The position numbers and the translations under genes are program-made. DNA of 64,000 nucleotides from assembly GCA_002049455.2 (NCBI GenBank), contig KV918873.1, forward strand, positions 124,001 to 188,000, in the 5' to 3' direction. A model generated the notes under the pieces. The model was not told where the DNA came from, did not search any database, and saw only the letters and a program-made list of their open reading frames with translations. The stretch comes from Porphyra umbilicalis. Lineage: Eukaryota; Rhodophyta; Bangiophyceae; Bangiales; Bangiaceae. Position 1 is the first letter of the stretch. Each line of letters starts with the position of its first letter. This document shows, in pieces, positions 31,219 to 61,387 of this stretch.

Positions 31219-31532
31219 AGCTTGCGGGGGGTGGCGCTCCGGCCGTGGTGCGGACCTTGTCCAGCTCACTCCCACCTCGGCCGGGACCAGTGTTTTGCCT
31301 GACAGGCGGTGAGTGTTTTCCGTATGTCCGACACGAAACAGCAGAGCACGACAGGCCGAGAAAATGAATGCAGACTGTCACCTCTGAAACGGAGAGCAAG
31401 TCCCACGATCTAAGTATATGTGTGCATCACTACACTTTGAGAGTACCCTGTCCTAAAGGCCAGGAAAAATAACATACGGAAGCCTGTTGCCCCGGCCTCG
31501 CGCAGTCCTCCAGTGTCAGGTACTGCATCTCC

Positions 31533-31947
31533 GACGCGAGCAGCAGCTCGGTCGCATCCGACCGCGTCGCCTTGGCGGCAGCTCGCGACACGAGCATCTT
31601 GTGTCGCACGTGCTGGCCGAGGGAGGGCACCTCCGTCGGCGCCAGGGTGCAGACGGCGACGGCGGCACCCCGACGCGAGCAGCAGCTCCGTCGCATCCGA
31701 CCGCGTCGCCTCGGCGGCAGCTCGCGACACGAGCATCTTGTGTCGCACGTGCTGGCCGAGGGAGGGCACCTCCGTCGGCGCCAGGGTGCAGACGGCGACG
31801 GCGGTACCCCGACGCGAGCAGCAGCTCGGTCACATCCGACCGCGTCGCCTCGGCGGCGGCTCGCGACACGAGCATATTGTGCGGCACGTGCTGGCCGAGG
31901 GAGGGCTTCTCCGTCGGCGCCAGGGTGCAGACGGCGATGGCAGCACC
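31533..31947. repeat. 139-bp tandem repeat, three copies
   Basis: The landmark GCTCGCGACACGAGCAT starts at 31581, 31720 and 31859, giving an exact 139-bp period and more than 90% identity between copies. 139 is not a multiple of three, so each copy changes the reading frame. The array sits over the 3' end of the minus-strand coiled-coil frame and would scramble its C-terminus. Confidence 0.9.
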
Positions 31948-35098: not shown

Positions 35099-35427
35099 TC
35101 TGACGTGGCACATGAATTTCTAATCTGAGAAATCATTGTGTGAAGAACTCGTACAGACATTTGCTTGGCTTGGGTGCTGTTTCCAGCAGGACATCAGGAG
35201 CGCCCCGGCGGGAACGGAAAATACCGCCGACCACGCGAGGCTGTCCCGAGGCGAGCCGTGATTTTCTTTTCCGGTGGGGATGAAATTAAGCCTTTATCAG
35301 AGCAGCCGACGCGATGGAGCGGCGACGCCTGTGCACACCCCCTGGCGCGGGCCCAGATGCGTGCAGCCAAGCGGGACAGACCACGCGACCGTTGGCAGCG
35401 GCGCTGTGTCGCCACACCGGGAGAGGC

Positions 35428-35607
35428 GTTGCCGGATTGTCGACATCTCGCTTGACAGTTCTTGCAAAAGAGGAATTACAAACACGCAAGACGTGGAAAT
35501 CTCCCTTCACAGACGGTATACAGTGGTGTAAACATACGCGGGGATCCGTACAGTACCGGTATACCGTCACGTGACGACCTCGGCCAATCGCATCCACGCT
35601 ACGTCGG
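35428..35607 (+). repeat. dispersed repeat, copy 1
   Basis: Matches 61176-61361 at roughly 80% over 180 bp. Shared blocks are CCGGATTGTCGACA, TTGACAGTTCTTGCAAAAGA, CATACGCGGGGATCC and ACCGGTATACCGTC. Palindromic GGTATACC units suggest the end of a DNA transposon. No coding frame. Confidence 0.7.
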
Positions 35608-35711
35608 CACACCGTGCCACGCGCACGGACCACCCACTCGCAGGAGCAATGGACGGTCGACGCACGCCGCTCGGCTGCGGCGGTTTGTGGCTGCCACACC
35701 CCCCCCCCACC

Positions 35712-36972
35712 CTACATGTTGCAGTGGCAAACGGGAAGGGTGCTGCGCTTGCCCCGCTCCGCTCGGGGTGTCGGCGCGGTCGACGCCTCGTCCGACGGTT
35801 GGACAGGCGTCTCGTCAGTCGCGGCTCGTGTGCCACGCGGCGCGCCAGACGCGTCACTGTCTATGGCGGGACCACGGGCGCCGCGGTTGCCTTCGCGGGG
35901 GCGGTCAGCGTTCGTGTCGCGGCAACCGGCGCGGTGCCCCACAGGTGCGGCAGCAGCCACACCGTCCGGTGCGTGCGAGGCCGACCGAGCGGCACGTGCG
36001 CCACCGAGGGACGTGCGGCCGCCGCTCACAGACAGCTGGTCGATGGCCGCCAGCACCGTCACCACCCACGCGTCGATCCCGTGCGCCACAGGCGCTGCCT
36101 CGTGTACGCTCGCGACGGCGTCGAGGAGCTGCTGAAAAACGCGCTCCATCTCGTCCACTGGTGCGTGCGTGAGGTGCACGCCGTCCAACGCCACGTCCAA
36201 GTCGGTGACGCGGGCACGCGCGACGCCGGTCTTGTGCCTGCGCACGACCGCCTTGAGCGCGTCGACGACCGGGCACCAGTACTGCCGCCGCCGCTGCTCC
36301 GACGCCTCGTCCATGCGCACGACCGTCGACCACGTCGGCGCCCACGCGTTTGTCACGTCCTCAGTCGCGTTGGCAATGCCGAGCACCAACACGGACGTGT
36401 CGACGGGGATGCGGGCCAGCACGCTGCGCAGCAGCGCGGTGGGCGGCCCGCCGGCGGCGGCGGCAAATTCGGCCATCCACATCTCGGCGTAGGGCATGTA
36501 GAGGACCGACGGCGCGACGCGGACGGCCGCCGCCACCGTGGACAGCAGCAGCGGTAGCTGCCCGTCGGTGCCACTCGCAGTGAGGGAGAGGAAGCCGACG
36601 TCAAACACGGGCAGGGACTGCAGGCGGCACAGCACCGCAGCCCCAACCAGCGACTGCCCCATGCCCGCATGCCCCGCAATGCAGAGGCGATGCGGGAGGA
36701 CCGGCCACGCGGCGAGCATGGCGGCGGCAGACGCACTCGACGTCGGCCCGTCACGGCCTGGGTGGCCCCTCGGCGCCGGGGGTGATCAGCTTGTCCCGCG
36801 GAAAGCGCGTGTCGAGGACCCCCACCACCCGCGACACGGCGGCTCGAGGAGCGCGCTCAGGCGCAACGGCAGCGGCCGGTGCAGCGCCGGGGATCCCCCG
36901 CCCGGCGGACTGCGCTCGGGAGGCCAGCGCCACGTCCCAGTCCGCGTGCGTCACGTCTGGGAGCGGCGGCGG

Positions 36973-37004
<32 letters not shown>

Positions 37005-38066
37005 CCGCACCACCCCCGACTTCGCCGGGTCTGTGGCGGCGGTCGCCACCGCCTCGAGCCACTGCGGGTCGGTCCGGCGCCACGCGCAGCACACGGCTTC
37101 GGTGGCAGGCCCCGGATTTCCGCTCCCGACCAGCCGTCTGTGCGTCGGACGACGTACGAGACCGCCGTCTCGTCTGCCGACGTGCCTGCGTGCAACTCCA
37201 TCAGCCGCCGGCGGTCGGACGCGTCGGGCAGCTGAAAGTCGAGCTCCAAGTCAAACCGGCCCGGACGCCGAAACGCCGAGTCCAACAGGTCCACCTGGTT
37301 GGTCGCGGCGAGGACCAACACGCGACCGCGCGAGCGAAAGCCGTCGAGCAAGGCGAGAAGGGTGTTGACGACCCGCGAGTGGTCGCGGTTGTCGTCCCGC
37401 GTCGCCGCGAGGGCGTCGACTTGGTCGAAAAACAAGATGGACGGGGCCGCCGCGGTCGCAGCGTCAAACAGGCGGCGCAGGCGGCGCTCGCCCTCGCCGA
37501 CGTACTTGGAGAGGATTTCGCCGCCGCGGATGAGGTACAGAGGCACGGGGGCGCCACCATTGGCCGCCCGCGCGTGCGAGGCGAGCACCCGGACGCTCAG
37601 CGTCTTGTCCGTCCCGGGCGGACCGGTCAGCAGCACACCCCGGGGAAAGGGCAGGGGCCGCCCGACACCTCCTCCGCGCGGCGTGGCGGTGAGCAGCGCC
37701 AGCACTTCGCGCAGCCGCAACACGTGCGCGTCGTGCCCCGCCACCGTTGCCCACGGGAGCGGGGCGGGGGGCTCGGGCTCGGGAAAAATACCCTTCTCGC
37801 CCCGCCGGCGGCGCTTGGTCGCCCGCCCGACACTGACCGGTCGGTGCGGGCGCGCTTGGCCCCGAGGAGCGCACCGGCGAGCCACCCGGTCGACGGGCGG
37901 GGGGGGGGCACGCGGTTGGCGGCGCTCGCGGCACTCGCCGGCGGCAGGGTGTGGAGGCGCCCGTCCAAGCGCGACGCCACGTCTCGCACGGCGGCAAGCG
38001 CCGCGCGTTCCCGCGCGGAACGACCACCCCGAGGCGTGCCGCGCGGCGAGGGCGACGCGGAGACAT
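35712..38066 (-). CDS. ATAD2/Yta7-like double-AAA protein with altered catalytic residues (copy 1)
   Basis: Probable chromatin-associated AAA+ ATPase. The first AAA domain (about 37680-37090) has Walker A GPPGTDKT (37601-37624; Asp where the family has Gly), Walker B ILFFDQVDAL (37409-37438; Gln instead of catalytic Glu) and sensor/arginine region LVLAATNQVDLLDSAFRRPG. The second, degenerate AAA-like domain (36719-36350) reads HRLCIAGHAGMGQSLVGAAV, SVLYMPYAEMWMAEF and SVLVLGIANATEDV. This is the pattern of ATAD2/Yta7, whose second domain lacks ATPase motifs. No bromodomain is seen. Both changes in domain 1 predict loss of hydrolysis. The frame changes in the N-terminal region and near the C29 tract (36978-37006). 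The start is uncertain: ATG at 38066 is the first after the TATA box at 38217. A tandem paralogue lies at 39045-41337. Confidence 0.72.
36978..37006. repeat. poly(C) tract, 29 bases
   Basis: Longest pure homopolymer in the window. It lies inside the AAA gene, where it reads poly-Gly on the minus strand; the protein-like frame differs on its two sides. Confidence 0.95.
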
Positions 38067-38216
38067 GGTGCTGCAGACGGGTGGCAAAAGACAGGGCGGC
38101 GGCACCGCGCGCACCCCGCGCGCCGCCGAGCGAGCCGCGCGGTCTCGCACGAGGGCGCCTCGGTGTGACGTCGACGCCCGTCGGCGGCGGTCGCAGTAGT
38201 CTCATCGACCGGTCCG

Positions 38217-38224
38217 TATTTATA
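38217..38224 (-). promoter_or_regulatory. TATA box of AAA copy 1
   Basis: TATAAATA on the minus strand, followed by CGG, upstream of the AAA gene. The same TATAAATACG occurs upstream of the ParB-methyltransferase gene (48365-48372), which supports a conserved core promoter in this organism. Confidence 0.55.
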
Positions 38225-38510
38225 CCCGCTGTCGACAGGGGGGGCAGCGGCTAATTTTTAACCACGGAAGTTTGTATTCATACGGTAGCCTGCGAATCTG
38301 GCAGTGGCACGTGTGGTGGCAGATGCTGGTTGCAGACGGTCCCGTCCCAACATCCGCTTTGGCATCATGAACCGGCCCCTGAGCCCTGAGCCAATGAAAC
38401 AGTGAGTTTGCTGACGCACCTAGGTCCGAGTTTTGTGAGAAGCACAGTAACACCCCGCCCCCTGCGCGTCCGCCCCCCCCCCCCTGCCTCCCCCACCCGT
38501 CCGCCCCCGT

Positions 38511-38570
38511 CCCCACGTCTCTGTCCTTTGCTGCAGCCTTCCCCACGTCTCTGTCCTTGGCTGCAGCCTT
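38511..38570. repeat. 30-bp tandem duplication
   Basis: Two 30-bp units (38511-38540, 38541-38570), CCCCACGTCTCTGTCCTTTG then CTGCAGCCTT, one mismatch between them. Lies in a C-rich intergenic stretch. Confidence 0.85.
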
Positions 38571-38758
38571 CCCCGCCCGCCTCCCCCCCTCCCTCCCCCC
38601 TGCTCCACCCTCGACGCCCGCCCAATGTCTTGTGTTTAGAAACCCCCCGTGTCTCATATCCCTAGAGGTTCCTCATCACCGCACGTGTCATACGCCTCCT
38701 CTGCAAAGCGTTCACAGCTACACGCGCTCCCTTGGCTGTGTACCCCACAGGCGTCCTG

Positions 38759-38885
38759 GGGGGGGGGCTTGGATCACTAGCGACGCGCAGGGATCCCCCC
38801 GGGCCGCACCCCGGTAGGTGGTTGCGTCGTGGGGGGGGCTTGGGTGCCCAGCGACGCGCAGGGGTCCCCCCGGGCCGCACCGCGG
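38759..38885. repeat. ~70-bp tandem duplication
   Basis: Two units sharing AGCGACGCGCAGGG and TCCCCCCGGGCCGCACC, with GGGGGGCTTGG at each start. Intergenic between the AAA paralogues. Confidence 0.75.
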
Positions 38886-39044
38886 AAGCCGCGACGGGGT
38901 GGTTGTTTTTGCAAATATATTTTTTTGTAGCCCACCAGGCTACCATAAAACCAACGGTACATCACCCCATCCGGGGTGGGGTGCCCTGCGGGTGCCCACT
39001 CGCGTCCACCTGCGCAAAGCCCCCCCGCCGGTTGGTGTGTGTGT

Positions 39045-41337
39045 CTAGACACCTCGCGAGCGCTTTGCCGGCCGTCCACGTCCACGAGAGCCGTCAGCGG
39101 CGCCGTCGCCGCCGCCGCCGCCGCCACCATTGTGCGTGTCGTCGCTGGCGACACCGTCGGCGTTGTTTGCGCCGACACTCGGCGCTTTGCCGTCGAGCGC
39201 GACGGTGGCCGCCAAAAGGCTCGCCCACAGGTCCCCCCCGTCTGGACTGGCATGCACAGGAGGGCGCGGAGACCTCAAACACCTGCTCCATTGCGTCGAC
39301 GCTCCACTCCGCCGACTGAGTCAGCAACGCCTCCAACCGTGCGTGTACGGCCTTCATGGCGACTGGCAGGCGCACATCTAGCCCTCGCTTCACGGCAAAC
39401 GTTTTGAGGCACGCCTTGACAATGTGGGCCCAGTCGTGGCGGCGCTGCGCATCCGTGGCGCATTTGAAAGAAAAGGTGGAGGGGAAACTGGCCAGCAACG
39501 CAGGACGGGCGCGCCCACCCGTTGTGGCCAGAACCAGGAGCGGCGTGCCGACGGGCACGTCCCGGAGCGCCGCCTCAAAAACGCACGAGTCCGTAGAGTC
39601 CCCCGCCGACGGGTCGTCCACCCACAAGTCTGCGTGGGGGATGAAGAGCACGGCCGGCGCGGCGCACGTGGCGGCGTAAATCGTCTCTGCCAGCCGCTGC
39701 TGGGGGGTGCGCGCCCCAGCCCCACGTGTGAGCGACACAAAGCCCTCTTCATAGATCGGCATTGGTGTCAGCGCATGCAGAACCGCACCCGCGACGGTGC
39801 CTGGGCACATCCCCTCGTCCCCGTCAATGAGCAGTCGCTGGGGCAAAACGGGAAGGTCCTTGGCCAAGGCTCTGAACCCAGTGTCCGCGCCGCACCCAAC
39901 CGCCGCTGCGGCGGCGCAACGCCCAGGCACCGACGGGAGCCGCTGGACGGGAAAGTGGCGAACGAGAAACGCCCGCACGTCGGCCAGCGTCGATGCCAGC
40001 AGCAGCGCCACGCGTTTCGGGAGCGGCCGCCGCAGGGGCGGCGGCGCCCCGAGCCGCGTGGACTGTTCGCGCCGATAGAGGGTGTCCTGCCAGTCGAAAC
40101 GCACGTCGGCAGTGTCGTCGGCAGCCTCCTCAATCGAGTCGGGCCACCCCGGAAACCGCCGCGCGAGGACGGTCGTGGCGGCGTTGTCACAGAGGCCAGC
40201 GAGCTCGGCCCCCGACCAGTCGTCGGTGTGGGCGGCGATCCAGGCCGCGTCCGCGGCGTCCATGTGCACGCCCTCTGCGGCGGCCGACACGCGCATGATA
40301 GCCGCGCGGCCGGCCGCGTCGGGGAGCCCAAAGCGCAGCTCCGTATCAAACCGGCCGGGCCGACGAAACGCGCGATCGATCAGGTCGACACGGTTCGTCG
40401 CCGCCACAACCAACACCCGGTCCCGCCGCACCAACCCGTCCAGGAGTGCCAACAGCGTGGCGATCATCGGGATCGACTCTTGGCGCCCGTCGGTGCGCGC
40501 GGCCGCGATTGCGTCAAACTCGTCGAAAAAATGATGGACGGCTGCGCGGCGGTGGCGGCGTCAATCACACGCCGGACGCGCTGTTCTCCCTCACCAATAA
40601 ACTTAGAGAGGAGCTCGCCGCCATTGACGACCCACAGGGGCACCGTGGTGCCCCCATTGAGCGCCTTGGCACGGCCCGCCAGCAGGCGGACGGCCAGCGT
40701 CTTGCCCGTCCCGGGGGGGCCCGTCAACAAAACCCCATTCTTGGTCGAGGCCCCCGCCGCCCGTCACGCGTCGGGCATTAGGAGGACAGCGAGGGCGACT
40801 TTAAGGGCGTCCACGTTGGCCGCTTGGCCGGCAAGCGCGTCCTATCTCGGCGTATCGTCGGGCAGTTTCAGCAACTCGGGCGGTGGCGTCGTCGATCGCG
40901 GTGAGTCGGGGGACGCGCGGCGCCCGTTGTCGGGCGTGCGAGTGCGGTGGCGCTGCCGTCGCTGCGGCGGTGGCTGCTCCTCCTCCTGGTGCTGTGGACG
41001 CGGAGGGAGCGGGCCAGCCAACAACGAACAAAAGGAACCATAATACATCGCCGAAATGTTCTGGGCGCCGCCCGTGGCAGGTGATCGGGGGGGGGGGTGG
41101 TGGGCGGGGCCTCGGGCGGGGCCTCGGTGCGTCTGCCACCCCGAGCGCCGGCACTTCGGCCGGCAGTGGGGGGGGTGCAGGCGGGCGTGCCCCGGCAGAC
41201 GACAGCGGGAGGCGCCCAAGGACGGCCCGCCGGCCCCCCCTGCCCCGAGCGGGCGCGGCTGCGCCGCCCACGCCGCGCGGACCAGCGTCGGGGGGGGGGG
41301 CACCCCAGCGCCCGCGCGGTCGCCACCGGCACCGTCA
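39045..41337 (-). CDS. ATAD2/Yta7-like double-AAA protein, catalytic motifs kept but frame interrupted (copy 2)
   Basis: Tandem paralogue of the gene at 35712-38066. AAA domain 1 has Walker [16 protein letters not shown] (about 40698-40725) and, one frame over, Walker [11 protein letters not shown]; the change falls at a run of six A (40535-40540) where seven would fit. The sensor region is [20 protein letters not shown]. Domain 2 is degenerate ([33 protein letters not shown]). The C-terminus [20 protein letters not shown] with a basic [10 protein letters not shown] end is reached after a C run at 39232-39238. Upstream of Walker A two in-frame stops (about 40842 and 40766) interrupt [17 protein letters not shown]. 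It is therefore either spliced there, mis-sequenced or a pseudogene. The start at 41337 ([12 protein letters not shown]) is a guess based on the TATA-like site at 41538-41544. Confidence 0.6.
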
Positions 41338-41401
41338 TCTCGCGTGGCACGCGCCTTGCCGACCGTGTTGACAAGCGAGGAGAGCCGCCGCCACGTCACG
41401 A

Positions 41402-41426
41402 GGGGGGGGGGGGGGGGGGGGGGGGG
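41402..41426. repeat. poly(G) tract, 25 bases
   Basis: Lies between the TATA-like site (41538) and the proposed start (41337) of AAA copy 2. In the sense of that gene it is poly-C. Confidence 0.95.
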
Positions 41427-42942: not shown

Positions 42943-43440
42943 CATGCGGGAGACGCGTATCCTAGTGCTACCTCAAATGCGCGTCAACAGGGGGTGGTGT
43001 GGGCAGCGTTTGCAAGGGCGGCGCCTCGCCCGTGCGAGTGGCTCGGCCGCTCGCAATGACAAAAGACGCACACACACGAGCAGCAAGGCGCTGGGGGGTC
43101 ATGAGCACCCCTTGTGTGGGGTTGACACAATGGGTGGCAGTCATGGAGGAGTCGACTTCCAGTGCCTCTGTCTGTCCGCCCACAATTCCATTTGTATTTG
43201 TTACCTGTCCAAGGCGGGCAAAGCTTATCGGAATATCCGGTGAGAACAGAGGCACGGTCATCTGGGAGCAAAAGTACAAAGACTTAGATCTACTACCGAG
43301 TTGTTGCTGCTGGTGCAGGTCCCACTGGGCCGCCTACAGTGAGCGCGGCGAGGGTGTCGTCAGACGCCACATTCGCCCGGTGCCATTCGACTGAACAGCG
43401 GGCCCGCCGGATCCCATCGTATGCTTGACATACAGTACGC
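42943..43440 (-). repeat. ~490-bp direct repeat, copy Q1
   Basis: Pairs with 49687-50175 at about 85-90% identity, same orientation, on the other side of the ParB-methyltransferase-SET gene. It contains the 36-bp core at 43230-43265. On the minus strand both copies keep the same frame across the core (MTV-x2-FSPD), then SSMTATHCVNPTQGVLMTPQ and RLAARVCASFVIASGRATRT, ending in a stop. Before the core is a CAG acceptor-like site and the peptide ARCSVEWHRANVA. This looks like duplicated exon material of one gene family. Confidence 0.75.
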
Positions 43441-43444
43441 AGCG

Positions 43445-44060
43445 GGTCGGCGGCGTGGTCGAAATTGCCACAACAAATAACAGCTGGCGCGTGTACAATA
43501 CCCTGTTGTTCGTTTTTTGTGTGAGATGCACAAAAATCTCGCACACGGTCACAGTACGGCCCCGAATTGCCCAAATGGGGCGCGTGTAACAAGGTAAGGC
43601 TTTTGTGTGCGGAGACACCGTTCCGGGACGAAGATTCACAAACGGGGGGGGGTGCGTGATTGGAACGGCGTGCGTTCGTGGGTGGCTTGAGCTCTCCAGG
43701 TGTGGTTCCAGGGTGTAGAGCGGCATCGGGCAAAGGTGTAGGCGTCTCAGCCGACTCGAAGCTGTTCCCCACAGCTCCACCTCTGTTGTTTGAGGATTGC
43801 AATGATTCTACCGCCACAATGTTTTGTCGAGGATCAGCCATACATATGATCCTCACACTGCTGTGGCCTACTCCTCCCACCATTCACACGCCGCGTACTG
43901 GCTGTACGGTCAGTCCGAGTGACCATAATCGTCCAATCAAGGCTGTTGTATGCTGAAACGTGAGCGGCCGACGCGGCCGTCCAAGCTATTTTGCAACGTA
44001 CACCCACACCGACGACACGCACGCACAACACACACACAGTCTATCTCTCCCTTCCACGGG
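43445..44060. other. intergenic, nothing firm
   Basis: Between repeat Q1 and the stop codon of the SET-domain segment. No supported gene. Confidence 0.5.
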
Positions 44061-44066
44061 CCCGCG

Positions 44067-47000
44067 TCACGCCGATTGGGGCGTCGTACCAGAGGACGCT
44101 GCGAGCATCGCGTTGACTCGACTCCAATCAAAGTCGAACCCATAGACGAGAAACAGCTCCTCCCCAAAGGCGACGTCCGCCGTGGCCACCACCGTCAACA
44201 GGTCGGGGTGCACCATGTCGGACGGGCGCTTGAGGGGCCGCAAGCGCAGGCGCACGTTGGGCTTGAGGGAGAGCGTCGAGCCGTCCGCCTGAAAGTTGAC
44301 CTTCTCGGCGCCACTAACCGCCCCATAGTGGTTGATGTAGCCACACGCGCAGCCGACAGACGGGACGAGCCAAAACTTGGGCGGCGGCGGAGCACCGCAC
44401 CGCGCCTTGAGCGGCACCAAGTGCGCATTGCGGGTAAACGTCTGGGGGGTGATGCAGGCCGTCGCCCTCATCGTGCCATACGGTCTGTGGGGGTTGTCTT
44501 GCAACGTCTTCAGACGGAGGTCCTTAAAGACGAGCCCCCCCCACATGGACCCGACCTGGTCGCCGACGCGCAAGCCGCCGGGGTGGCTGACAAAGACGCC
44601 CAAGCCACCAAAGGGGACGCCCGACGAGGCGACGCGCACCCGACATGCGGTCGCGTCCGCGGCTCGCACAGTGGCCGTGTCGGCACACTCGAAAACCGCC
44701 CGCATCTGCTGCGGCCAGTCGTGCACCGGCTGGACGAGCAGGTCGTCGAGGCCCTTGACGGTAAAGAAGTCGTTTGGCACATGGTGGCCAGGGAGACGAG
44801 AAAGTGGACGATGTGTGTCGGAACCCGGGTGTGTGCCGACTCGCCGGCTTTCAGGGTCAATGCCGACGACAGCCACTTGGTCGACGACGAGGGCTCAGGG
44901 CGACGCGCCGCGAGCTCGGCGGCCACCCTTTCCACAGCGTCGAGCAGCTGCGGTGTCACCCCACCTGCACCTTGGTTCGCCTTGGCCCAGTCGACAAACG
45001 CAAAGTAGGTGCGACGACGCGCGGCCTTGACGACCACGTCGTCGACGTCGCAGCCGTAAAACTGCGTCGCGTCTGCACACACGCGACCGCCGTCGTGCCC
45101 GTCCCCATAAACAGGTCGAGGACCGCGTCACCCGCGTGAGAAAAGCGGCACACCAGCTCCCGCACGCACCCCACCGACTTTTGCTCGGGGCGCAACCACT
45201 TGCCGTCCTCGTTGTACACAATCTCCAACGGGCCAGGCGGAGCGACGTTGGTGATCGCGTTGCAGTGGCCGGGCAGGGGAGACGAGGTCTGGTTGTGATT
45301 CTTAAAGCTCACCCTGCGATGCGTCCCGGTGCCGCCGCCCGTACGCGTCGCGTGGAGGGCCTTGTCCACCCAATTGGCCAGCGCGTGCTGGAGCGACCAC
45401 CCCACCGCCGTTGGACGACACCGCGACCATGGAGCACGGGTCGACGAGCCACTCGGGCTCGCCCCGACCCTTCAGCGCCGTCGCCGTCCGTAGGTTGGAC
45501 AGGATGTCAAACCACTTGGAAACCTGCAAGTCGGAACACTGGATGATGAGCTGGCCGCCGTGACGCACCATCCCAGTCACGTCGCGCGCCACTGCCAGCA
45601 TGTCCGCTCCGACAGCCGGTCATGGGCAGAGTTGGGTTCCCCGCGCTTCAGCCGTGTGCCGTAGGGCGGGTCGAGGTACGCCAGTTGAATCTTGTCTTGA
45701 GGTTGCCGTGGGGAACTGCCAAAAGTTGCACGATACCATCTGGACACGCGCCGCGAGGGCCCCCTCAATGAGACGCACGTCGGCGACGCTGACGGCAGAG
45801 AATGGTCGGCCGTCGGCCACGGCATCGAGCATGTCCGAAGAGGGCGCCCCATCGGCCAACTTGGCGGGGGCCTCGTCGTCCAGCCACAGTTCCCGCAGGG
45901 AGGGCCAAGGACGGGCACCACGCCACCAACGAGAGCCGACTCGTGGGGTAGAAAGGAGCAGACGCTCAACTTGCCCCTGTCCGTTTGCCTCGACAGCGGC
46001 TCGTACGTCGCGGACCACAACTCTGGGGACCCCAACACGTCGCTCATGTGCCGCGCGTACTGCGCCGCCGCCTTGCGCAGCAGCCGATCGTCGTCGGGGG
46101 AGTTGGTAAAGGTCGCCAGCGCCACGGGGTCGACCACGTCGGGGTCCATGGACGTTGGCAGACCATGGAAGAGGCGGTACCGCTGGCACCGCGGGGAGAA
46201 GCCATCCGAAGGATGCAACAAGGGCTTCAACTTGCACTCCTCGGCGCACCACACCAAGTACGGCCAAAACATCGTCATGGCGTCTGCGTAGCCACACTTG
46301 GCCGCGACAACGTCCCAGGACCGGTTGACGATCATGGCGGCGTACGACACGCGCACAGTCCGCATGTCGCGCTCGACAACAGCGCCGGGGGTTTTCGACG
46401 CTGCCGCACCGGCCACTGACTTTCCCTTGGCAGACGCCGACAGCCGCTTTTGCTTTTTGGCCGACAACGTCTGACCCGTACCACGCCCCCGGGTGGTACC
46501 GTCGCCGTCGTCGTCGCCGTCGGGGTGCGCCTTCCCTCGCGCACGTCTGCCATGAGCTGCAAAACGAGCCACACGCGCTCGTCCATGGTGCTCAGGGGCC
46601 GATGACCGGGTCGAGCGGGTCGTCCAACAGCTCCGGCACCGCGCCCCCTGCCGCCGACCCCGCGCGGCGGCAGACGCAGGTGCGCCCCGATCACGAGGCA
46701 CCAAACCATCGCCTTGATCGTCCTCATCCGCGTCCATGTCCGCGGCCTTGCGCTTAGCACCCTTTCCGGTCCCCGGCATCGGCAACAGATCCTCGCTCTG
46801 CTTCTTGGCTGCAGCGCGTCGCGCCTTGTCGATACCCGCCTGCCCCTCATCCGGCCGCGTCTGGATGTAGCTGACCATCACCTGCCACCGACGGAGGGCG
46901 CCCGCAACGGCGGCCGTGTGTGCTGCACCCTTTTCCGTCCGTCGAGGCGTCGCGGCGAGTGCGGCAAGGCGGTCCCGCATAGCCATCTCACGACGCCCGC

Positions 47001-48197
47001 TGCTCACCTTGGGCCACGCAAAGCCGCTCAAGTCCCGCCACTGCAGGGCCACCGGATATCGACAAACCAAAGCGTCAACCCGGACGCGCGGCGTCCGGTC
47101 CGGCGGTCGGTCGCGGACGATCACACCCAACCCGCCGACGGGCGACACGAACCCAGGGGCGGGCACAGGGGTGGCCACCCGAGAGCTGGGACCGCCCCCG
47201 GTGGCCGCCGACGCGTCTGTCGGAGCGACCGGCGCCTGCTCCGCCGGCCCGTCAGCGTCGACCAGCACATCCTGCAGCTGCTCCAAACGGTGGCTCATGA
47301 AGAGCAGGAGCTCCCACAAGCGCGTGTCCACGGGGGCGCCCCCCGCCATCCGCGCACGGTGCAGGTTCCACGTCACCCAGGCCTTGCACCACATGAGGAC
47401 GGCGTACCACAAGTACGTGCGCTCCTGACTCATCTTGGCGAGCAGAGCACTGCTTGACGTAGACGACGGTGCCATGGCCGCCACCCTGGTCTGAGTTCAA
47501 CAATCGACACTTTTGGCCAGAAGGCAGCTCGCGCAGCGTCGCTCCGGAGCGCTGCGAGTCGCTCGTTCGCCACCTCGTCTCGCACGACGACCGCCGCAAG
47601 GACCACGTCCATGGCGGCCATGGCCTTGACATTCTCGGCCACCCACTGCAAACCAATGGCTTCAACGATGCGGCTGCCGTCGCGCGGGTTCGCAGCAGAC
47701 GCTTGGGAGACGGCGTCCTTTGCCAAGAGCATCGGGAGGCGGTGGAACCCGTCGGCAAACGTGCCGTTGGTAGCGCCGCGGAGGGCCGCCTCGAAGCGGG
47801 CGTGCCCCGACACGAGCACCACGGCGTCCTCCCCTCCACCTTGCGGCCAGCGCATGGCGCTTGGGCGTACTCCTTGAGGGAGGTCACGCCCACGTCGACC
47901 ACGTGCTCGTCGTGTGCAGGCCGTATGTCCGTCCAGTAGCGCACCATGGAGAGGTGCACCCAACAGGTGGCGTTGGGCGACTGCTCTCGCCAGTTGGCAA
48001 TGGGAACACCCTCAACGTCCGTCACCAGCGCCTCGTCCTGTGCACGGGCTGGGCGCACAACCGCAGCCCGAGGGCCGTCGGGCGGCACCGTCGGCGCCCC
48101 ATGAGGGACCCCCGTCGGCGAACTGTCGCGGGCGCCACCGTCTCGGCGGGTGGCCCGGCCGCCGGACGCGTGGCGTGGGCATGGCACGCGCGGGCAT
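44067..48197 (-). CDS. ParB-like / N6-N4 DNA methyltransferase / SET-domain gene, interrupted frames
   Basis: Segments in order on the minus strand. (1) A ParB-like region (about 48060-47600): EALVTDVEGVPIANWREQSP, VGVTSLKEYAQ, AVVLVSGHARFEAALRG, FADGFHRLPMLLAKDA. (2) A central helical and basic region (47484-46000), with WVTWNLHRARMAGG, KGAKRKAADMDADEDDQGD and RVSYAAMIVNRSWDVVAAKC. (3) A beta-class DNA amino-methyltransferase: catalytic motif IV LAYLDPPYGTRL (about 45675), then LVDPCSMVAVSSNG, then AdoMet motif I GDAVLDLFMGTGTTAVAC (about 45130), then FYGCDVDD. (4) SET (44640-44070): GVPFGGLGVFVSHPGGLRVG, CACGYINHYGAVSG, VAFGEELFLVYGFDFDW, stop at 44067. Predicted role: methylate DNA and protein (histone) lysine at ParB-targeted sites. 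The frame changes several times; introns, homopolymer errors or decay are all possible. Start at 48197 is the first ATG after the TATA box and is uncertain. Confidence 0.68.
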
Positions 48198-48198
48198 A

Positions 48199-48223
48199 GG
48201 GGGGGGGGGGGGGGGGGGGGGGG
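48199..48223. repeat. poly(G) tract, 25 bases
   Basis: Immediately before the first ATG downstream of the TATA box of the ParB-methyltransferase-SET gene. Poly-C in the sense of that gene, so presumably in its 5' leader. Confidence 0.95.
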
Positions 48224-48372: not shown

Positions 48373-48533
48373 GTGGAAAACCACGCCCAGACCCAGTGTG
48401 GGACGACTCGGCCCGTTTGTGGGCGGAACACAGCCCGACGGTGGCTCGAACGCCGCGCGCGGGAGACGACGTGCGGGCGACCCGACAGATACGGGTTGCA
48501 ACGGCGTCCCCATGCAAAAAGTCCGCGTAATTG

Positions 48534-48598
48534 TCACCAAGCGACGCCGCCGGAACGCTCTCGGATTATCCGGTGAGAACAGCGTCACGGTCATCTGG
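48534..48598 (+). repeat. inverted repeat copy P carrying the 36-bp core
   Basis: 65 bp matching 50630-50694 in reverse orientation at about 59 of 65 positions. The core GGATTATCCGGTGAGAAC...TCATCTGG is at 48563-48598. Read toward the methyltransferase gene it is CAG|ATGACCGTG then FSPDNPRAF in translation. Confidence 0.8.
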
Positions 48599-48599
48599 C

Positions 48600-49686
48600 A
48601 AAACAAGTAGATCAAATTACATTTGGTGAACAACGCCTGTACCGTGGAGGGATTCCCACGTGTCTGCCGTGCGCGACAACCCGACGACGGTACGACCGTC
48701 CGCACGTGCCTCTGGGGATCGCGCTACGGTCCCCGCACGTCACTGGTACGGGGTGGTATTCTGTATCTTGACGAGGTGCTTTCGGGGCTGTGACGTACGC
48801 AACACATCATCACTGGGCTGGAAAGTCGACCCGCACGGCATGAATGACTCCCAGTGCCGTTACGACCACTTATTTGTGTCTCTCCCCAGGACAAACACCC
48901 TGACGCGCTGCGGTGCATCAAAGCGCCTCTCCGCTGCTGCGACGCCTGGACCGTGTGCGCACGCAAATGGACCCAAGATCGGACGTCAGTGAGGCCGATT
49001 CTGGACACAATTGCTCTCCCAGTTATATAGCAGCGTGCTATACAACGAAAGGTGCATCCCACGCATTATAACCTCTGGCGGCGACGCATGCTCAGGCCCA
49101 GCAGAGAGGGACACCAACGCCCCCGATGCCGAATGTCCCACTATAGAAAGAACCACCAACTTGCAAGCGTTCAGTCCATGCGCGCCGAGGCAAATTTTGC
49201 ACTGCATGTTGGAGCTTTGTCGTGCGTGCAAAAAGAAGAGGGTGCCGGTTTTGTGGTACTTTTTGCGCCCTCGTTGACGCCATGCTTCTACGGTGGCCAT
49301 GGGAGGCGTGCTCGACCAGGGAAAGTTGTAAGCATGTACATGACGCATGCAGCCAGCCGGCTTGATCCGCCCTATCAATTTGCGTGGACAGTATTTATCA
49401 GCTGGATCTTTGTTGCAACGGCTAGTGTTGAGCTGGAAACCAGACGCAGACCTTCACCAGTGTCACGCAACCCACGCCATTCGGGCGCTTCTCGCACTCA
49501 CAGGCCCTTTAATTCGGTGTACCGCCAGAACACCCATGTCTGTCATCTGGGAGACTTTGGCTCCTGGAGGTCCATTTCCGACGCCCTCACATCGTTTTTG
49601 GGACAGGTGTTAGTGCATGGGGTACGGTATACCTTTAGTGTCGATATAACCGGATATTGACTGTACCAGCTCGATGCCAGGGCGTC
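48600..49686. other. spacer between divergent ParB genes, no gene supported
   Basis: Moderate GC. Contains a small perfect stem ATAGCA/TGCTAT at about 49027 and a partial core-like TGTCATCTGGGAG at 49545. No convincing coding frame. Confidence 0.5.
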
Positions 49687-50175
49687 ATGCGGGAGACGCT
49701 TCTCCTACCTCAAATGCGCGTTAACAGGGGGTGGTGTGGGCAGCGTATGCAAGGGCGGCGCCTCGCCCGTGCGAGTGGCTCGGCCGCTCGCAATGACAAA
49801 AGACGCACACACACGAGCAGCAAGGCGCTGGGGGGTCATGAGCACCCCTTGTTTGGGGTTGACACAATGGGTGGCAGTCATGGAGGAGTCGATTTCCAGT
49901 GCCTCCGTCCGCCCACAACTCCATGTATTTGTGACCTGGTCACGGCGTGGGAAGCTGATCGGATTATCCGGTGAGAACTGAGGCACGGTCATCTGGGAGC
50001 AAAAGTACAAAGACTTAGATCTACCGCCGAGTTGTCGCTGCTGGTACAGGTCCCACTGGGGCGCCTACAGTGAGCGCGCCGAGGGCGTCGGCAATAGCCA
50101 CATTCGCTCGGTGCCATGCGACTGAACAGCGGGCCCACTGAGTCCCATCGTCTGGCTCACAGACGGTACACAGAG
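49687..50175 (-). repeat. ~490-bp direct repeat, copy Q2
   Basis: Partner of 42943-43440. Core at 49961-49996. Its minus-strand upstream part extends (50230-50021) into a Cys-rich peptide, CPVCVGKTGRLGGCPLCTVC then ARCSVAWHRANVA. The spaced CxxC pairs look like a small zinc-binding module, possibly PHD-like. It ends near the CAG acceptor before the core. Confidence 0.72.
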
Positions 50176-50629
50176 GGCAGCCACCCAGGCGCCCCGTCTT
50201 TCCCACGCACACGGGGCACTGAGCACACACGCGCAGCGTGGGTGGGGGGGGTCTCCCCAGAAGAAACCACCGCCGTGCCGCTCCCGCCCTTCACATTGCC
50301 TGGCAGCACACACAATCTCCGGCGAGAATCGGCGCGCCGGTCAAATCAGACCAGCAAGCAATCACAGCCACACACAGACACCCCCCCGCACGCTAGCGGC
50401 GCTGCGATCATCCGGCACGGTGCGGCACTCTTGCAGAGCCACAGCCCGTTCCACACACACGACCAAAGAAGCACGCGGTTGGGCCATTGGTGGCCGACAC
50501 GGTCAGATGTGCGCGAGGATGTGCGGGCTGCCGCACTTTCCATATGACGCCCAGATCCCCGATCAGAATTTCACAATGTTGCTTTCTTTACGTCGCTTTC
50601 ATATTGTACTTGTATTCTGTATTTATATC

Positions 50630-50694
50630 CCAGATGACCGTGATGTTGTTCTCACCGGATAATCCGAGAGCGTTCTGCCCGCGTTGCTTGGTGA
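50630..50694 (-). repeat. inverted repeat copy R carrying the 36-bp core
   Basis: Inverted partner of 48534-48598. Core at 50630-50665. It lies about 390 bp before the ATG of the intact ParB-like gene and has the same orientation relative to that gene as copy P has to the methyltransferase gene. Confidence 0.8.
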
Positions 50695-50980
50695 TGAATA
50701 CGTGGATTTGATTGTCGTGCCATGCGTTGTGCAACGCAGGGACCCGCTGCGCGCTCTGATTGGTCAATCTCCGACTCGTTTCAACCGTCGAGGCGGTGGT
50801 GACACATGCACAAGGGGGCCGATAAAGGCGGCAACGTCGGACCCGCCGGTCATCAGCCGACAGGCCCGCACTGTCCTGTCCACACCACCCCCGGCGTGCA
50901 CGCAGTTGCCTGAGGCGTGCGTACGCACCGCTGCTCTCTCTCCCCAGGGACAGACCCCAGCGCTCACGCGAGGCGCCCTT

Positions 50981-51004
50981 CCCCCCCCCCCCCCCCCCCC
51001 CCCC
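50981..51004. repeat. poly(C) tract, 24 bases
   Basis: Ends 78 bp before the ATG of the ParB-like gene, in its presumed 5' leader, C on the sense strand as for the two other genes with such tracts. Confidence 0.95.
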
Positions 51005-51082: not shown

Positions 51083-52852
51083 ATGTCGCACGCCGTGGGC
51101 AACCTGGTGCCACGTGTGATTACCGTCGCGGATCTGTGTTTGCCGGACGAGTCTGCGCGGACGGTCGATGACCAGCACATTCGGAGGCTCAAGGCAGACA
51201 TCCGCAATGGGACCTTTATCGGCAACGTGTCCCGCATGGTCGTCTTTGTCCTACCAGGGGACCCTCCCCGCTACCGTCCCGTCGACGGCTTTCACCGTGG
51301 CAGCGCCTTGACGCAGTCGGTTCAGGAAGACGTCCTCGAGCCGACGTTCCCGTTCTCCGTCGACGTAGTCTCAGACGAAAAAGGCCGCCCCCGCCATCTG
51401 ACCGACAGCGAGTGGGTCGGCTCGTCCATGCAACGGAACGACATTGGCGACAAGTGCGCTGTCGTGACCCTGACGGACACGCTAAAGAGCGTCAAACTCC
51501 TGTTCACAAGTGTGTGGGGCGACGACCCACCACCTTCCTACGCCGTCGCCCAGTCGTTTCAGGCGAACCAGGCTGTCGCCGCGCTCTACACCAGCGGCAC
51601 CGTTCCGGGGGATCCGCAAGCCCGCGTCAAGGGGCTGGCCACGGTCTTCCTCGCGGTGTGGCCGTTCCTGGACAGTCCACGCGCCTGGGCGGAGTTCCTC
51701 AGGATCACCCACTTTCAGCGCTTTGGTGGTGGCTACCCGCACAAGCGGTACTCCATGAGCATGCTCGGCAAACCGCCTTTCCGATTGCCGCTGGCCGACT
51801 TGGATCCGGCGCTCGGCTCATCGGCGCTCTCCGACTCTGTGCGCTTCCTCATGCTGAGGACCGCGGAGGCTTGGCTTGATCTGCACAATTGCCATGTGGA
51901 TGATGCGCGGGCGCGAGATGCGGAAAAGTCGCCCAAACTCTCCGTTCCGGTCGCCTCTGACCAGTTCTCCGCCGTCTCCAAGTACGTGTGTGGCATGGTC
52001 GCGTGTGACAAAGGTCAAGCGGACGTCCTCGACAACCCCATCCTCCATCTACACGACGGTGCGCCCGTCGTTCCGTCGGTCGCGATCGTGGACGCGTTTC
52101 GCTTCTTTCGTGAACCAAAGAATTCGGCGGCTGGACTCGTGTCGTCCGCCTCGACTATTGGCAGCATGGCTGAGTTGTTTGTTGACAAGGCCACGCGCCT
52201 GCGAGCTCTTGTTCGCTCGTCACTGGCTGATGGGGGCGCGCGAGTGCCATGGGGCATTGCAGGTGTCACGGACGACCCCGCGCTGTTGTCGGAACCTCTA
52301 CCGGCTGAGGACTCGACCGACGGAGCGCGTTCGAGGCTGTCGGCGTCGCCTCCTTCCGCCGTTTCTGAGGACGACGAAACCAACAAGTCCGGCGGCGGCA
52401 TGCTCGCCTACTTTGCAGGCTTGAACATGAGCCAGTACTCTGGTGCGTCTGCTGGGGACCCCAGCGCCACAGCTGCGGCGGCCGGTGGCGCACCTGCGGT
52501 GGAGACCCCTGGTTCTGCTGCAGGGGGCTGTGAGTCGCCTGGTGCGGACCCGCCTGGTGCTCCTGCAGGGCGCAGCGGCGCGCCTGGAGAGGCCCCGCCC
52601 GGTGCTCCTGCTCGGGGCGGTGAGTCGCCTCGAGCAGACTCGCCTGCGCCACCTGCGGTCGTCCCGGCGGCGCCGGGCGGTGAGTCGCCTGGTGCGGACC
52701 CGCCTGGTGCTCCTGCAGGGCACAGCGATCAGGTACGACGCGACTTGGGGATTTGCCACCGCGGTTTTCAGATTGGTGGCAGTACGTCTGAAATGGCTGC
52801 ACTGGGACATGTTCGACCGCACTTTTTAACAGTGTCTACACAATCAGTATAG
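51083..52852 (+). CDS. intact ParB-like domain protein
   Basis: 589 residues in one frame from the ATG at 51083 (MSHAVGNLVPRVI). The N-terminal ~75 residues match the ParB/sulfiredoxin-like fold by pattern: an initial strand with VADLCLPDESARTVDDQHIR, then RLKADIRNGTF, then a strand and PPRYRPVDGFHRGSALTQSV, equivalent to the ParB yxVvDGhHRxxA motif. Residues ~80-400 are a well-behaved helical domain (SYAVAQSFQANQAVAALYTS, AEFLRITHFQRFGGGYPHKR) of unknown family. The last ~150 are Ser/Asp/Glu then Gly/Ala/Pro repeats (SPGADPPGAPAG twice). ParB domains bind and can hydrolyse CTP or act as nucleases in bacteria; which applies here is unknown. Head-to-head with the ParB-methyltransferase-SET gene across a 2.9-kb spacer sharing core repeats. 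No introns seen. Likely of bacterial or phage descent. Confidence 0.72.
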   Translation: MSHAVGNLVPRVITVADLCLPDESARTVDDQHIRRLKADIRNGTFIGNVSRMVVFVLPGDPPRYRPVDGFHRGSALTQSVQEDVLEPTFPFSVDVVSDEKGRPRHLTDSEWVGSSMQRNDIGDKCAVVTLTDTLKSVKLLFTSVWGDDPPPSYAVAQSFQANQAVAALYTSGTVPGDPQARVKGLATVFLAVWPFLDSPRAWAEFLRITHFQRFGGGYPHKRYSMSMLGKPPFRLPLADLDPALGSSALSDSVRFLMLRTAEAWLDLHNCHVDDARARDAEKSPKLSVPVASDQFSAVSKYVCGMVACDKGQADVLDNPILHLHDGAPVVPSVAIVDAFRFFREPKNSAAGLVSSASTIGSMAELFVDKATRLRALVRSSLADGGARVPWGIAGVTDDPALLSEPLPAEDSTDGARSRLSASPPSAVSEDDETNKSGGGMLAYFAGLNMSQYSGASAGDPSATAAAAGGAPAVETPGSAAGGCESPGADPPGAPAGRSGAPGEAPPGAPARGGESPRADSPAPPAVVPAAPGGESPGADPPGAPAGHSDQVRRDLGICHRGFQIGGSTSEMAALGHVRPHFLTVSTQSV

Positions 52853-54300
52853 ACCAGGGGTCGTCAAGCGTACTTCTCCTCAATCATATTCGCGCATACT
52901 TTCTGTTGAAACGCAGTGGGGATAGGGGATGGGGGACCACGGTGAAGTGCTTGAGTGGCTTGAGCTTGTGTGTATGTGTGCGAACGTGCTTTGTTGGTTG
53001 TCTCTCCAAAGCGCCCCTCTTCCCATCAAGGGCACTCCTCAAGTAGTCCAAGTCGGAGCACTCAAGCCCACCACGAAGCCCAAGCAGCTCGCCCGCGCAC
53101 GCGCCCGCCCACACTCTAAATCAAAACGCTCACCAAATCAAAACATCAGGGATCAAAGCAAAGCCCACGCAAATCAAAGCATCAGAAGCGCAAGAACAAA
53201 AAATGTGAAATCGCAAAATTTCACTCAAAATCGCACGGGTACAAATGTCGAATGCACCAGCGGTCACCAAACTGCGAGGAAGTCGCATGGGTAGCCTAGT
53301 GGGAAGTAGGCACCCATTCTCATTAGGCGTGACCTTCGGGTCGCGTCAGGGAGTCGGGGGTTCGAACCCTGTCAATACCTGGTTTCTTGAATTTTGCTTT
53401 TTAGAGCAGGAGGGCTTACAGCGGCGTTGAGCATGACGTTCCAACACTTTCTTCGGATGTACACCCGAACGCTTGACTTTCGCGGATATACGCTACCCAG
53501 TGATTTCGCACAGTCGAATGTACGCTTGAGGTGAATGTCATCGGGTGCTTCCGGACATAACTAACCCGACTGTCGACAAGGAAAATACGTGCGACTTGGG
53601 CATTCGCGCGCGTGTTTGCTCACGCGCAGTTCAAGAACAGTCCGACTTATCTGACATCCAAGCGAAACAGGAGGCACTCTTCATTTGGATTTCTGAAGTC
53701 AATAAACATTAAAAGTCCGTTCAGCCAATGACCAACTACCTCTAGTACCCGAAGAGCTCCCAGACTTGCCAATATGCTTGGTCGAGTTATTGTTTGAAAA
53801 ACACGCGGAAATGTACGCTTGCCGTTTGCTGGCTGGAAAGTATGCTTGAACCAGACCTCTCGCGCTCGACATACGCGAACGTTTGCCATGCACCATACCG
53901 AAGTCGCAGACGCTATTTCAAAATAGGTACTCTTGAAGACCCCTTGTATGGACGGCATATTCGCATTTAAGAGCTACAGTTCGCGGCCAGCGCGGTTTTG
54001 ACACTGTCCAACGACATTTCTGGGAGCCGCCTTCCCCTCCCCATCAGAGCTCCAATCGGGGGCATCGCAGCATCTGCTGAGACAAGTCACGTGGCCCCCC
54101 TCGGTGTCACTATTGCGAGCGTGCCTGGGCTGGATTCGTATTCTATCAGCAGGACACTATTGCAGTCTGCTCAATTTTGCCGGTACGCAACAAGAAGGGG
54201 ACAAGAACAAGAGTGGAAATTCCCGACTGAGGCCATGTAAACATGGACAGTTTCTAACTACTTCCGGGCCCCGATTGTTGGCAGCAGTCGAAAAAAACAA
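52853..54300. other. AT-richer island
   Basis: GC falls visibly compared with the flanks. Contains several TACGCTTGA-like words (52867 inverted, 53468, 53521, 53815, 53841), the tRNA-like sequence at 53284-53402 and a 103-codon minus frame (53958-53647) of normal composition but no known family. Perhaps an inserted element. Confidence 0.5.
53284..53402 (+). ncRNA. tRNA-like sequence / SINE head with Pol III boxes
   Basis: A box TAGCCTAGTGGG (53292-53303) and B box GGTTCGAACCC (53359-53369), with a T5 terminator at 53398-53402. A D-arm-like GCC...GGC pairs around the A box, and a 7-bp hairpin with a UUCG loop (CGTGACC/GGTCGCG) sits where a long variable arm would be. The acceptor and anticodon stems do not pair properly, so this is not a working tRNA; a tRNA-derived SINE or tRNA relic fits better. 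Confidence 0.5.
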
Positions 54301-55820
54301 CAGTCTTCAGAGAATTGAAACAAGGGGGGGGCACCCATGCCTTCGCTATCGGCGATTTGGATTGAAACGGCCACGAAAAGATTCGGGGGCGGGCAAGATT
54401 GTGTGCAGCATCTGTCCCGATCCCGGCGCGGATTGGCGGAGAACGGAGGGGATCCGATGGGAACCGGCCTGCCTTGAAGGCCCCGAGCCCTGAATTGGTG
54501 GCGGATCGACGGGAAGCGACCGAGAAACGACGGGAACCGACGGGGCCCGACCCACGCCACCCTCTTGTCGCAAAGCGACGTGACTGTCTGTCAGACACCT
54601 CTGCACAGTGGATCTACTCCCGATTGGCTGCAACGGGAGCTCCTTGCAATGTGTAGTCGATCGCTGATTGGCTGTCATATGATCCGTGTCGCTCTTCGTC
54701 TTTGTCGTCTGCTCCGTTCCCTACCCCATTGCAAGTGGCAAACAAGAAGGGTTTCGTCCATGCGTCCAGAGGACGCGGAGACACCGCAAACATGGGGGGG
54801 ATCTGACTGCTGAGCAGGGAACAAGAAGTCGCGTCTAGCAATGGATTTCAGGAAAGCGAATGCAATGCACAAGCCATACGATCTCTCCACACCCTACCTC
54901 TCAGTCCGCCATCCTCAGAATGCCTTCCTACAGGACAGATGGCTGTCGCGAACAAGGAAATCGCAGCAAAACCAGAAGTAGATCACAAAGAACAGGAGTA
55001 CCACCAGCAAGGCCTAGACCACCGCCCCCCGTCCCTGGACCCGCCCCCACGACGCACTCAACCCGCCTCAGAACCCCCCCCCCCTCCCAGAGCCATCCCT
55101 TCCCGTGAGGTACCCGTCCCCGATTCTCCCCTGCGGCCGAGCTGCCGGCTCCCTCCCCTTCAGCGCAGATGCACAAAATTAATGGCAGCGGTAGAGATGT
55201 GCTCTCCGATCAATGCAGAAACTATGAACAACAGATTTGCAGTGGGGCGATGGGGGTGGTGGCGGGCGTCGCAGTGGACGTGATGAATGCGCCGTCCACG
55301 ACGGCCGTGGTCCTTGCTTCTGCGGGCCGACTTCAATTTAAATTCGCTGTGCACAAGTTTTGAAAATATGGATATCAAATGCAAACAAAATGCGGACCTA
55401 ATAGAGTTTCATGAAAACGACTCTTGTCCCAGTCTTGTTCTGTACCGGCAAAATTGAGCAGCCTGCAATACGTTGTGCATACCGACCGTCATACGCATCG
55501 CTCTCTAGAGAGCTCTCGTATCGGGCCTCTGCGGCGCCACGTCGTCCCACCCGGGCGGCATACGTTACAGGCGGAAAGACGCATTTTATAAGGTCCTCCA
55601 GCGCCTCCTTGGGGGGGGGGGGGGGAACAGGGGGAGGGCAGCAGTATGCTTCTTGCCAACCCCCCCCGTGCACGTCCCGCTCCCCCCCACCGGGGCCGTG
55701 CGCTTCTCCTCCCGCGCCCCCCGCTCCCCCCCTGCAACCCCCCACCACCAAGCAAACCAGAAAAGAGAGAAACAGAGCAGACCAAACCAAACTAAGTACA
55801 CACAAGACAGGAGCATACGA
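54300..55820. other. intergenic, no gene supported
   Basis: Mixed GC, C-rich from 55.6 kb with an 11-13 base G run near 55612. Frames here lack domains. Confidence 0.45.
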
Positions 55821-56775: not shown

Positions 56776-57239
56776 CTGGGGAAGAAGCTGCCCTCCTGAT
56801 TCGAGATGGCAGATTTCCAGACACGTATGGAAATTTCAAGGAAACTTCCGTTACCTCCCACATGGGGTGTTCTGCCCTCGTTTCGGTAATTTCCGTTTCG
56901 TCACCGTTTTCTCTCGAGACATTGAAACGTGTGTCACTGACAACCGTCCCTCTGTCTGTGGCGCTGCTTTGTGGCTGTGCATGGCGCATCCTAGCCACAC
57001 AGACGACGAAGGCTGCCCACAGGGAGCAGCTGCAAAGCGGCTGCTTTGCACTGCGCGCAGGGCGTGCTGAGGACCGACGAGGGCACCCTGGCGACAGGGC
57101 CCGCCGGGCGCAAGCTGACTCGCCTTGGCCGCCTCGGGGGACAAGCGCATACTCTCCTCAGCTCGCTGTCGTTGACGTGACCATCATTGTCCTGGCTTCC
57201 TCCACCGCACAGCACCTGCTTACCCCCCACTTGGCCCCC

Positions 57240-59718: not shown

Positions 59719-59743
59719 CCCCCCCCCCCCCCCCCCCCCCCCC
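59719..59743. repeat. poly(C) tract, 25 bases
   Basis: Pure C run; no gene can be assigned around it. An 18-base poly(G) lies at 60236-60253. Confidence 0.95.
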
Positions 59744-61060: not shown

Positions 61061-61175
61061 CGGCGGGTGGGGAGGGTTGCAGCGAACAGTGCCATGCAGC
61101 GCGGTGCGTCTCGAGTGGGCTGCGGTGCGCGGGTCGACTTCTCATGCCCGCTCGCAGCGGCGTGTGTCGCGAGGA

Positions 61176-61361: not shown

Positions 61362-61387
61362 TATACCGTCACATGGTTTGCAACTGC

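Follow-up and report, generated by a model that had tools for sequence, protein, structure and literature searches.

Organisation of the methylase locus

The window analysed here is a stretch of 64,000 nucleotides from the red alga Porphyra umbilicalis (assembly GCA_002049455.2, contig KV918873.1, positions 124,001 to 188,000 of the forward strand), and all coordinates below count from its first letter. Its minus strand carries a long coding stretch (44067-48181), called the methylase gene in the following, which a codon-usage path describes as about 1366 codons with about eight frame changes. Along this strand a ParB-like part, a middle region, a DNA amino-methyltransferase and a SET-like part follow each other from 48.18 down to 44.07 kb. 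A previous sequence-only reading had quoted peptides for the ParB, methyltransferase and SET segments, and inspection of the frames and translations located them on the minus strand with the coordinates and in the order it had claimed.

The DNA amino-methyltransferase

The best recognised part of the gene is a beta-class DNA amino-methyltransferase (44992-45699, minus strand, ends approximate) detected with PF01555 and phrog_67. PF01555 is found on one intact frame (3.8e-8, 34 bits) and, with a higher score, on the joined fragments (1.3e-12, 48.6 bits), the curated cut-off being 26.7 bits. Methyltransferase families of the PHROG collection match as well, the best of them being phrog_67 at 1.9e-12. 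In the beta class the DPPY motif IV stands ahead of the FxGxG motif I. The same order is seen here on the minus strand, where DPPY (45661-45672, with DPPYGT reading from 45672 downwards) precedes the motif I sequence LDLFMGTGTT (45091-45120). The proposed beta-class N6/N4 methyltransferase is borne out by both the profile score and the motif order, and judged by its sequence the identity of this part as a DNA amino-methyltransferase is certain. Its frame is interrupted by changes near 45700, 45609, 45409 and 45075. Among the matches listed, the phage and plasmid relatives share about 30-51% identity with it, and the matched part never exceeds 43% of the query; they are too distant, therefore the donor cannot be named. 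Library scans of the fragments of the methylase gene gave no match to a chromodomain.

The SET-like part

Further along the minus strand follows the putative SET-like domain (44127-44640, ends approximate) with GLGVF, GYINHYG and GEELFLVYG. Members of the SET family show the motifs GxGxF, NH and GEEL..xY in this order, and their histidine motif is usually NHSC. The profile used here is our own alignment of 87 SET domains, seven of them from viral contigs, most others bacterial and at most two from the PDB; a set of 94 loci and two PDB segments yielded 93 domains, of which 87 were retained as full length. Among the viral-contig scans with SET queries one gave no loci and another 14. Compared with this profile by hhalign, the SET piece scores 23.2, above all 100 shuffles (best shuffle 19.0), and it ranks first of 274 window sequences, the next best reaching 18.3. 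A signature of the three motifs (GxG..F, NH, GEEL..xY) that was designed with knowledge of the sequence occurs in none of 20000 shuffles and in one of 273 window frames, namely the SET piece; with slightly looser spacing it matches 59 of the 87 true SET domains. The assignment of the C-terminal part as SET-like is moderately supported by these profile and motif comparisons.

The ParB-like part and the middle region

The putative ParB-like core (47718-47962, minus strand, ends taken from the frames) extends from WVHLSMVRYW over LVSGHARFEAALRG to FHRLPMLL and is interrupted by a frame change near 47833. It was detected with a broad ParB profile of 31 bacterial ParB-like sequences, grown from the frame of a bacterial ParB-methyltransferase fusion and containing its seed twice. 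This profile puts the ParB box on LVSGHARFEAALRG with a score above all 150 shuffles (best shuffle 18.5). By hhalign the segment ranks first of 274 window sequences with 20.2, and by HMMER its frame tops 762 frames, yet with 4.9 bits and E 1.6. The sole library match on this segment is to an unrelated family (E 0.11). The peptide ADGFHR was also considered as the ParB box of the methylase gene and was dropped, since the broad profile sets the box elsewhere. An ADGFHR signature is found in none of 50000 shuffles, but it was written after seeing the sequence, and its loosest form occurs in 149 of 50000. We consider the N-terminal part to be ParB-like with weak to moderate confidence; the prior for this assignment is raised because the phage ParB-methyltransferase fusion is known.

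Between the ParB-like part and the methyltransferase lies the middle region (45904-47491, minus strand), which comprises about 529 codons on the codon path and in which library scans recognised no domain. Near 46.5-46.7 kb it contains more compensating frame changes, as judged by eye.

Reading frame and integrity of the gene

The codon-usage model was trained on five long frames from the window. With penalties of 8 and 12 its path follows one coding stretch, which ends with the stop at 44069 and contains eight frame changes and no internal stop. The nine segments between the frame changes have a GC3 of 0.76-0.88 and similar position-specific GC. Here the sequence-only reading had to be revised: its three segments appear to be fragments of one broken gene. 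As assembled, the locus is broken in about eight places, therefore this copy cannot encode the whole protein. Introns were rejected as the main source of the frame changes, because the fit was poor and the intron at 45747-45607 would excise the DPPY motif. With cheap introns the path uses six of them (23-159 nt) together with two frame changes, and at equal cost this intron alone is retained, together with six frame changes.

As cause of the breaks we favour true decay over assembly error. The latter would mean that sequencing or assembly has introduced the frame changes into a gene that is in fact intact and working. This explanation stays alive because the nine segments contain no stop codons; furthermore, the codon bias persists to the end of the gene. 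Additionally, both AAA ATPase genes in the window require frame changes once introns are forbidden, so that the breaks extend beyond the methylase gene. However, the five control genes need no frame change at penalty 16, although these controls are biased towards intact genes because they were selected as long frames, and the second ParB-like gene described below, which is among them, shows two frame changes and one stop at lower penalties. Moreover, just two of the eight sites are near a run of at least three equal bases, compared with 43% of positions. An intact gene hidden by such errors appears possible but doubtful.

Another explanation divides the stretch into at least two neighbouring genes, a ParB-like one ending near 47430 and a methyltransferase-SET one starting at the ATG at 47475. 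By eye, the frame change at 47492 sits directly before this ATG, and the own frame of the ParB segment continues to a stop near 47430. On the other hand the frames overlap without a spacer, most of the other frame changes fall within or beside the methyltransferase, and the fusion of ParB with a methyltransferase is already known. A division into separate genes is therefore regarded as unlikely.

A probable degenerate copy of a single gene

We interpret the methylase locus, with a probability of roughly 55%, as a degenerate copy of a single gene resident in a eukaryote, which would have combined a ParB-like part, the middle region, an amino-methyltransferase of phage or bacterial type and a SET-like part. 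Several results weigh against this interpretation. For the SET piece, searches of Pfam, NCBIfam, PHROGs and PDB sequences that admitted E values as high as 10 returned no SET match, which means that the curated cut-off of PF00856 was not reached. The piece has an hhalign probability of just 7.8%, and HMMER with our own SET collection places it fourth of 762 frames. Its histidine motif NHYG departs from the usual form, and its single-sequence AlphaFold model was worthless (pLDDT 29). For the ParB segment in turn, Pfam, NCBIfam and PHROGs gave no match naming ParB with the same limit on E. hhalign assigns this segment a probability of 3%, and its margin over the top unrelated frame is thin (20.2 vs 19.4). 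Nor does it stand out with the phage-ParB profile, where 36 of 200 shuffles scored equally high; in further tests with phage-ParB profiles 30 of 742 (from 1000) and 29 of 774 reported shuffles were as high. Raising the penalty to 16 reduces the frame changes of the codon-usage path to six but introduces one internal stop. Finally, a search of viral contigs with three pieces of the methylase gene, which reaches close relatives only, returned no relative.

A further explanation holds that the methyltransferase alone is real and that the likeness to SET and ParB arose by chance in diverged GC-rich coding sequence. The curated libraries that are blank for both domains, the fourth place of the SET piece by HMMER and the thin ParB margin speak for it. 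Against it, each of the two segments ranks first of 274 by profile-profile comparison and scores above all shuffles with the profile built here, and the SET signature, although chosen with hindsight, is confined to a single window frame and absent from all shuffles. We consider chance likeness improbable. What had been claimed as a SET domain finds support in its rank with our own profile, shuffles and motifs, but curated libraries and HMMER do not follow. Likewise the broad profile places the ParB box at LVSGHARFEAALRG, as proposed, with a score above every shuffle, but neither curated profiles nor phage ParB support it.

A second ParB-like gene

An intact neighbouring gene (51083-52852, plus strand; 589 amino acids from the first in-frame ATG) has a predicted N-terminal ParB-like domain, which was found with a phage-ParB alignment. 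Compared with phage ParB by hhalign, it reaches Prob 88.5 and E 2.7e-6. None of 200 shuffles scored as high, nor did any of the 498 reported from 1000 shuffles. With 45.0 it is first of 274 by phage ParB, the next window frame reaching 19.8. The phage-ParB query of viral contigs yielded 26 loci, and the top-scoring phage match of the second gene is a protein annotated as ParB-like (E 0.9). This gene does not stand out against shuffles with the broad bacterial ParB profile (40 of 150 equally high), curated ParB profiles of Pfam, NCBIfam and PHROGs gave no match, and the library scans found neither methyltransferase nor SET in it. An AlphaFold model of its ParB region built with eight viral-contig sequences (pLDDT 40) was too poor to add anything. 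A PDB fold search with this model returned nothing at E <=0.001; among the best 50 of 134 rows the highest TM-scores belong to sulfiredoxin, at E 4.9. By comparison with phage ParB the N-terminus of the second gene appears clearly ParB-like, and more clearly so than that of the methylase gene.

Direct comparisons of the two ParB-type genes did not show kinship beyond the DGFHR motif; when they were compared once, three of 200 shuffles were as high, and the similarity ran through DGFHR. The second gene ends with Pro/Gly-rich repeats at its C-terminus.

Shared block, repeats and mobility

Upstream of the methylase gene lies a conserved block (48519-48609, minus strand) that contains CACCGGATAATCCGA, and the same block is found inverted upstream of the second ParB-like gene (50628-50709, plus strand), with 86% identity over 80 bp. 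The block core holds the palindrome CGGATAATCCG and occurs in four copies in the window (at most three mismatches), all of them in 43.2-50.7 kb, where none would be expected by chance. The two remaining copies are part of a repeat of about 500 bp, copy A (42943-43446, minus strand, core at 43228-43276) and copy B (49686-50177, minus strand, core at 49959-50007). These are 89% identical direct repeats, one on each side of the methylase gene, with flank matches of at most 5. There is also an 18-nt partial match to the block at 49535-49552. Block copies occur in both orientations, therefore inverted pairs form. One of them (43228-43267 and 50628-50667; 40 nt, 88%) brackets the methylase gene, another (48519-48598 and 50630-50709; 80 nt, 86%) brackets the intergenic stretch of 2 kb, and a weak 18-nt inverted pair also flanks the methylase gene. 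The block may serve as a promoter element or a binding site, or it may represent a terminal repeat.

Runs of 24-29 C or G bases are located at 48199-48223, 50981-51004, 41402-41426, 36978-37006 and 59719-59743. Two of them lie just upstream of both ParB-like genes and read as C on the sense strand.

The ends of the block pairs show no target-site duplication beyond chance level, their longest flank match comprising 3 bases. The weak 18-nt pair has a flank match of 7 that reaches into its own arm; random end pairs commonly match in 4-5 bases, and in at least 7 in 10 of 400 cases. The scan for a transposase domain covered fragments of the methylase gene, but not each frame of the non-coding flanks, and found none. 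The locus may or may not belong to a mobile element, as had been proposed: inverted block copies bracket it, but the ends and the scanned fragments lend the proposal no support, and this copy is frame-broken.

Both ParB-type genes are preceded by a block with CGGATAATCCG, and the block is also present in both 500-bp repeats. On this basis one might imagine a small family of eukaryotic genes with ParB-like N-termini, whose intact products load on block copies and, each as one polypeptide, act in cis as a self-marking, possibly mobile, double writer of amino-methyl marks on DNA and lysine-methyl marks on chromatin, but we consider such a system quite unlikely.

Host context and origin

The genes of the window include an ionotropic-receptor-like gene, a cytochrome-b5 desaturase, hAT transposases and AAA ATPases, and given these families the window is taken as eukaryotic. 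The codon usage of the methylase gene is host-like. Its correlation with six other window genes is 0.86-0.95 (0.95 with the receptor and 0.93 with the desaturase), with the caveat that these genes had contributed to the training of the codon model that chose the frames of the methylase gene. Together with the match to PF01555 this agrees with the earlier suggestion that an amino-methyltransferase of bacterial or phage type resides in a eukaryotic genome. Contamination, or the integration of a giant-virus segment, would likewise explain a methyltransferase of bacterial type. It is highly unlikely, since the codon usage agrees with that of the desaturase and receptor genes, the window holds hAT transposase frames besides the cytochrome-b5 desaturase, and the three gene pieces mentioned above lack relatives among viral contigs, as far as close relatives are concerned. 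The same search, with the same reach, found no relative of the second gene or of the block.

Other features of the window concern its genes and repeats. The two AAA ATPase genes stand in tandem (35712-41380, minus strand), are 69% alike over about 430 bp and need frame changes or introns. The hAT transposase frames (18234-20783 and 57176-59014, both plus strand) resemble each other. Inverted 49-bp repeats (54158-54206 and 55422-55470) that are 90% complementary enclose about 1.2 kb and perhaps delimit a small transposon. A 139-bp unit is repeated three times in tandem (31531-31947), and a dispersed repeat of about 225 bp occurs with 80% identity at 35389-35615 and 61148-61369. Scanning the window for Rfam families and tRNAs gave no match.

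Relation to known systems

To our knowledge no fusion of a DNA methylase with a SET domain has been described. Our literature search, which left most subscription papers outside, found no description of a methyltransferase-SET fusion, and for N6_N4_Mtase together with SET domain it returned solely the paper on bdelloid N4CMT (PMC8885841). According to the accessible part of this work, N4CMT combines an amino-methyltransferase captured from bacteria with a chromodomain, SETDB1 partners were proposed for it in trans, and in bdelloid rotifers DNA amino-methyl marks and histone marks are thought to be linked via separate proteins. As far as that part goes, the similarity to the methylase gene consists in a bacterial N6_N4 methyltransferase that resides in a eukaryote and is tied to chromatin. 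In N4CMT, however, the fusion partner is a histone reader and SET belongs to a separate protein, whereas here putative SET-like and ParB-like parts share the same chain.

The second relevant group comprises the phage ParB-N6_N4 fusions. The consulted sections of PMC12704722 describe them as commoner in phages than in bacteria, which confirms the combination of ParB with an N6/N4 methyltransferase as a prokaryotic and phage architecture, and report binding of CTP, ATP or GTP by ParB-like folds. From the section of PMC5512222 that we consulted, the ParB-methylase of Bacillus cereus nicks DNA. These fusions share with the methylase gene a ParB-like part and a PF01555 methyltransferase. They differ in being prokaryotic, and the term “SET domain” occurs 0 times in PMC12704722; moreover, the middle region of more than 500 codons that separates the ParB-like part from the methyltransferase here distinguishes our gene from the phage fusions as far as the consulted sections describe them. 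In six phage regions that we examined, one ParB-like gene stands directly before a DNA methyltransferase and another such pair is one gene apart.

SET genes and DNA methyltransferases are also known from mobile DNA. As cited in the part of PMC12730594 at hand, HarbingerS and MuDR transposons of Phytophthora carry a SET gene. Judged from that part, they resemble our locus in having a SET enzyme amid repeat-rich DNA, but the scanned fragments of our gene yielded no transposase, and our gene includes a fused DNA methyltransferase. The available portion of PMC3627910 describes methyltransferase and endonuclease genes in mariner elements of algal viruses. These elements are similar insofar as a DNA methyltransferase occurs in mobile DNA of the eukaryotic world. 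In contrast, their methyltransferases belong to other families and are separate genes, and SET is not mentioned in this portion. The combination of ParB, methylase and SET looks new, with bdelloid N4CMT and the SET-carrying transposons of oomycetes as its precedents.

Proposed function and significance

An intact copy of the methylase gene may have worked in the following way, as far as the properties of the domain families allow. Its ParB-like part would bind a nucleotide triphosphate and DNA and in this way position the enzyme. The methyltransferase would then methylate the amino group of adenine, as suggested by the DPPY-type motif, with N4 of cytosine as the alternative, and the SET-like part would methylate a lysine of a nearby protein. 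DNA and chromatin marks could thus be laid at a single site. The earlier proposal of a DNA methylase coupled to a protein methylase in one chain stands insofar as the SET-like part is moderately supported, but the copy found here is frame-broken. If this interpretation is true, one chain that writes both marks would represent a direct physical link of DNA and histone methylation. It would also mean that ParB-methylase modules of phage type can be remade into eukaryotic chromatin enzymes.

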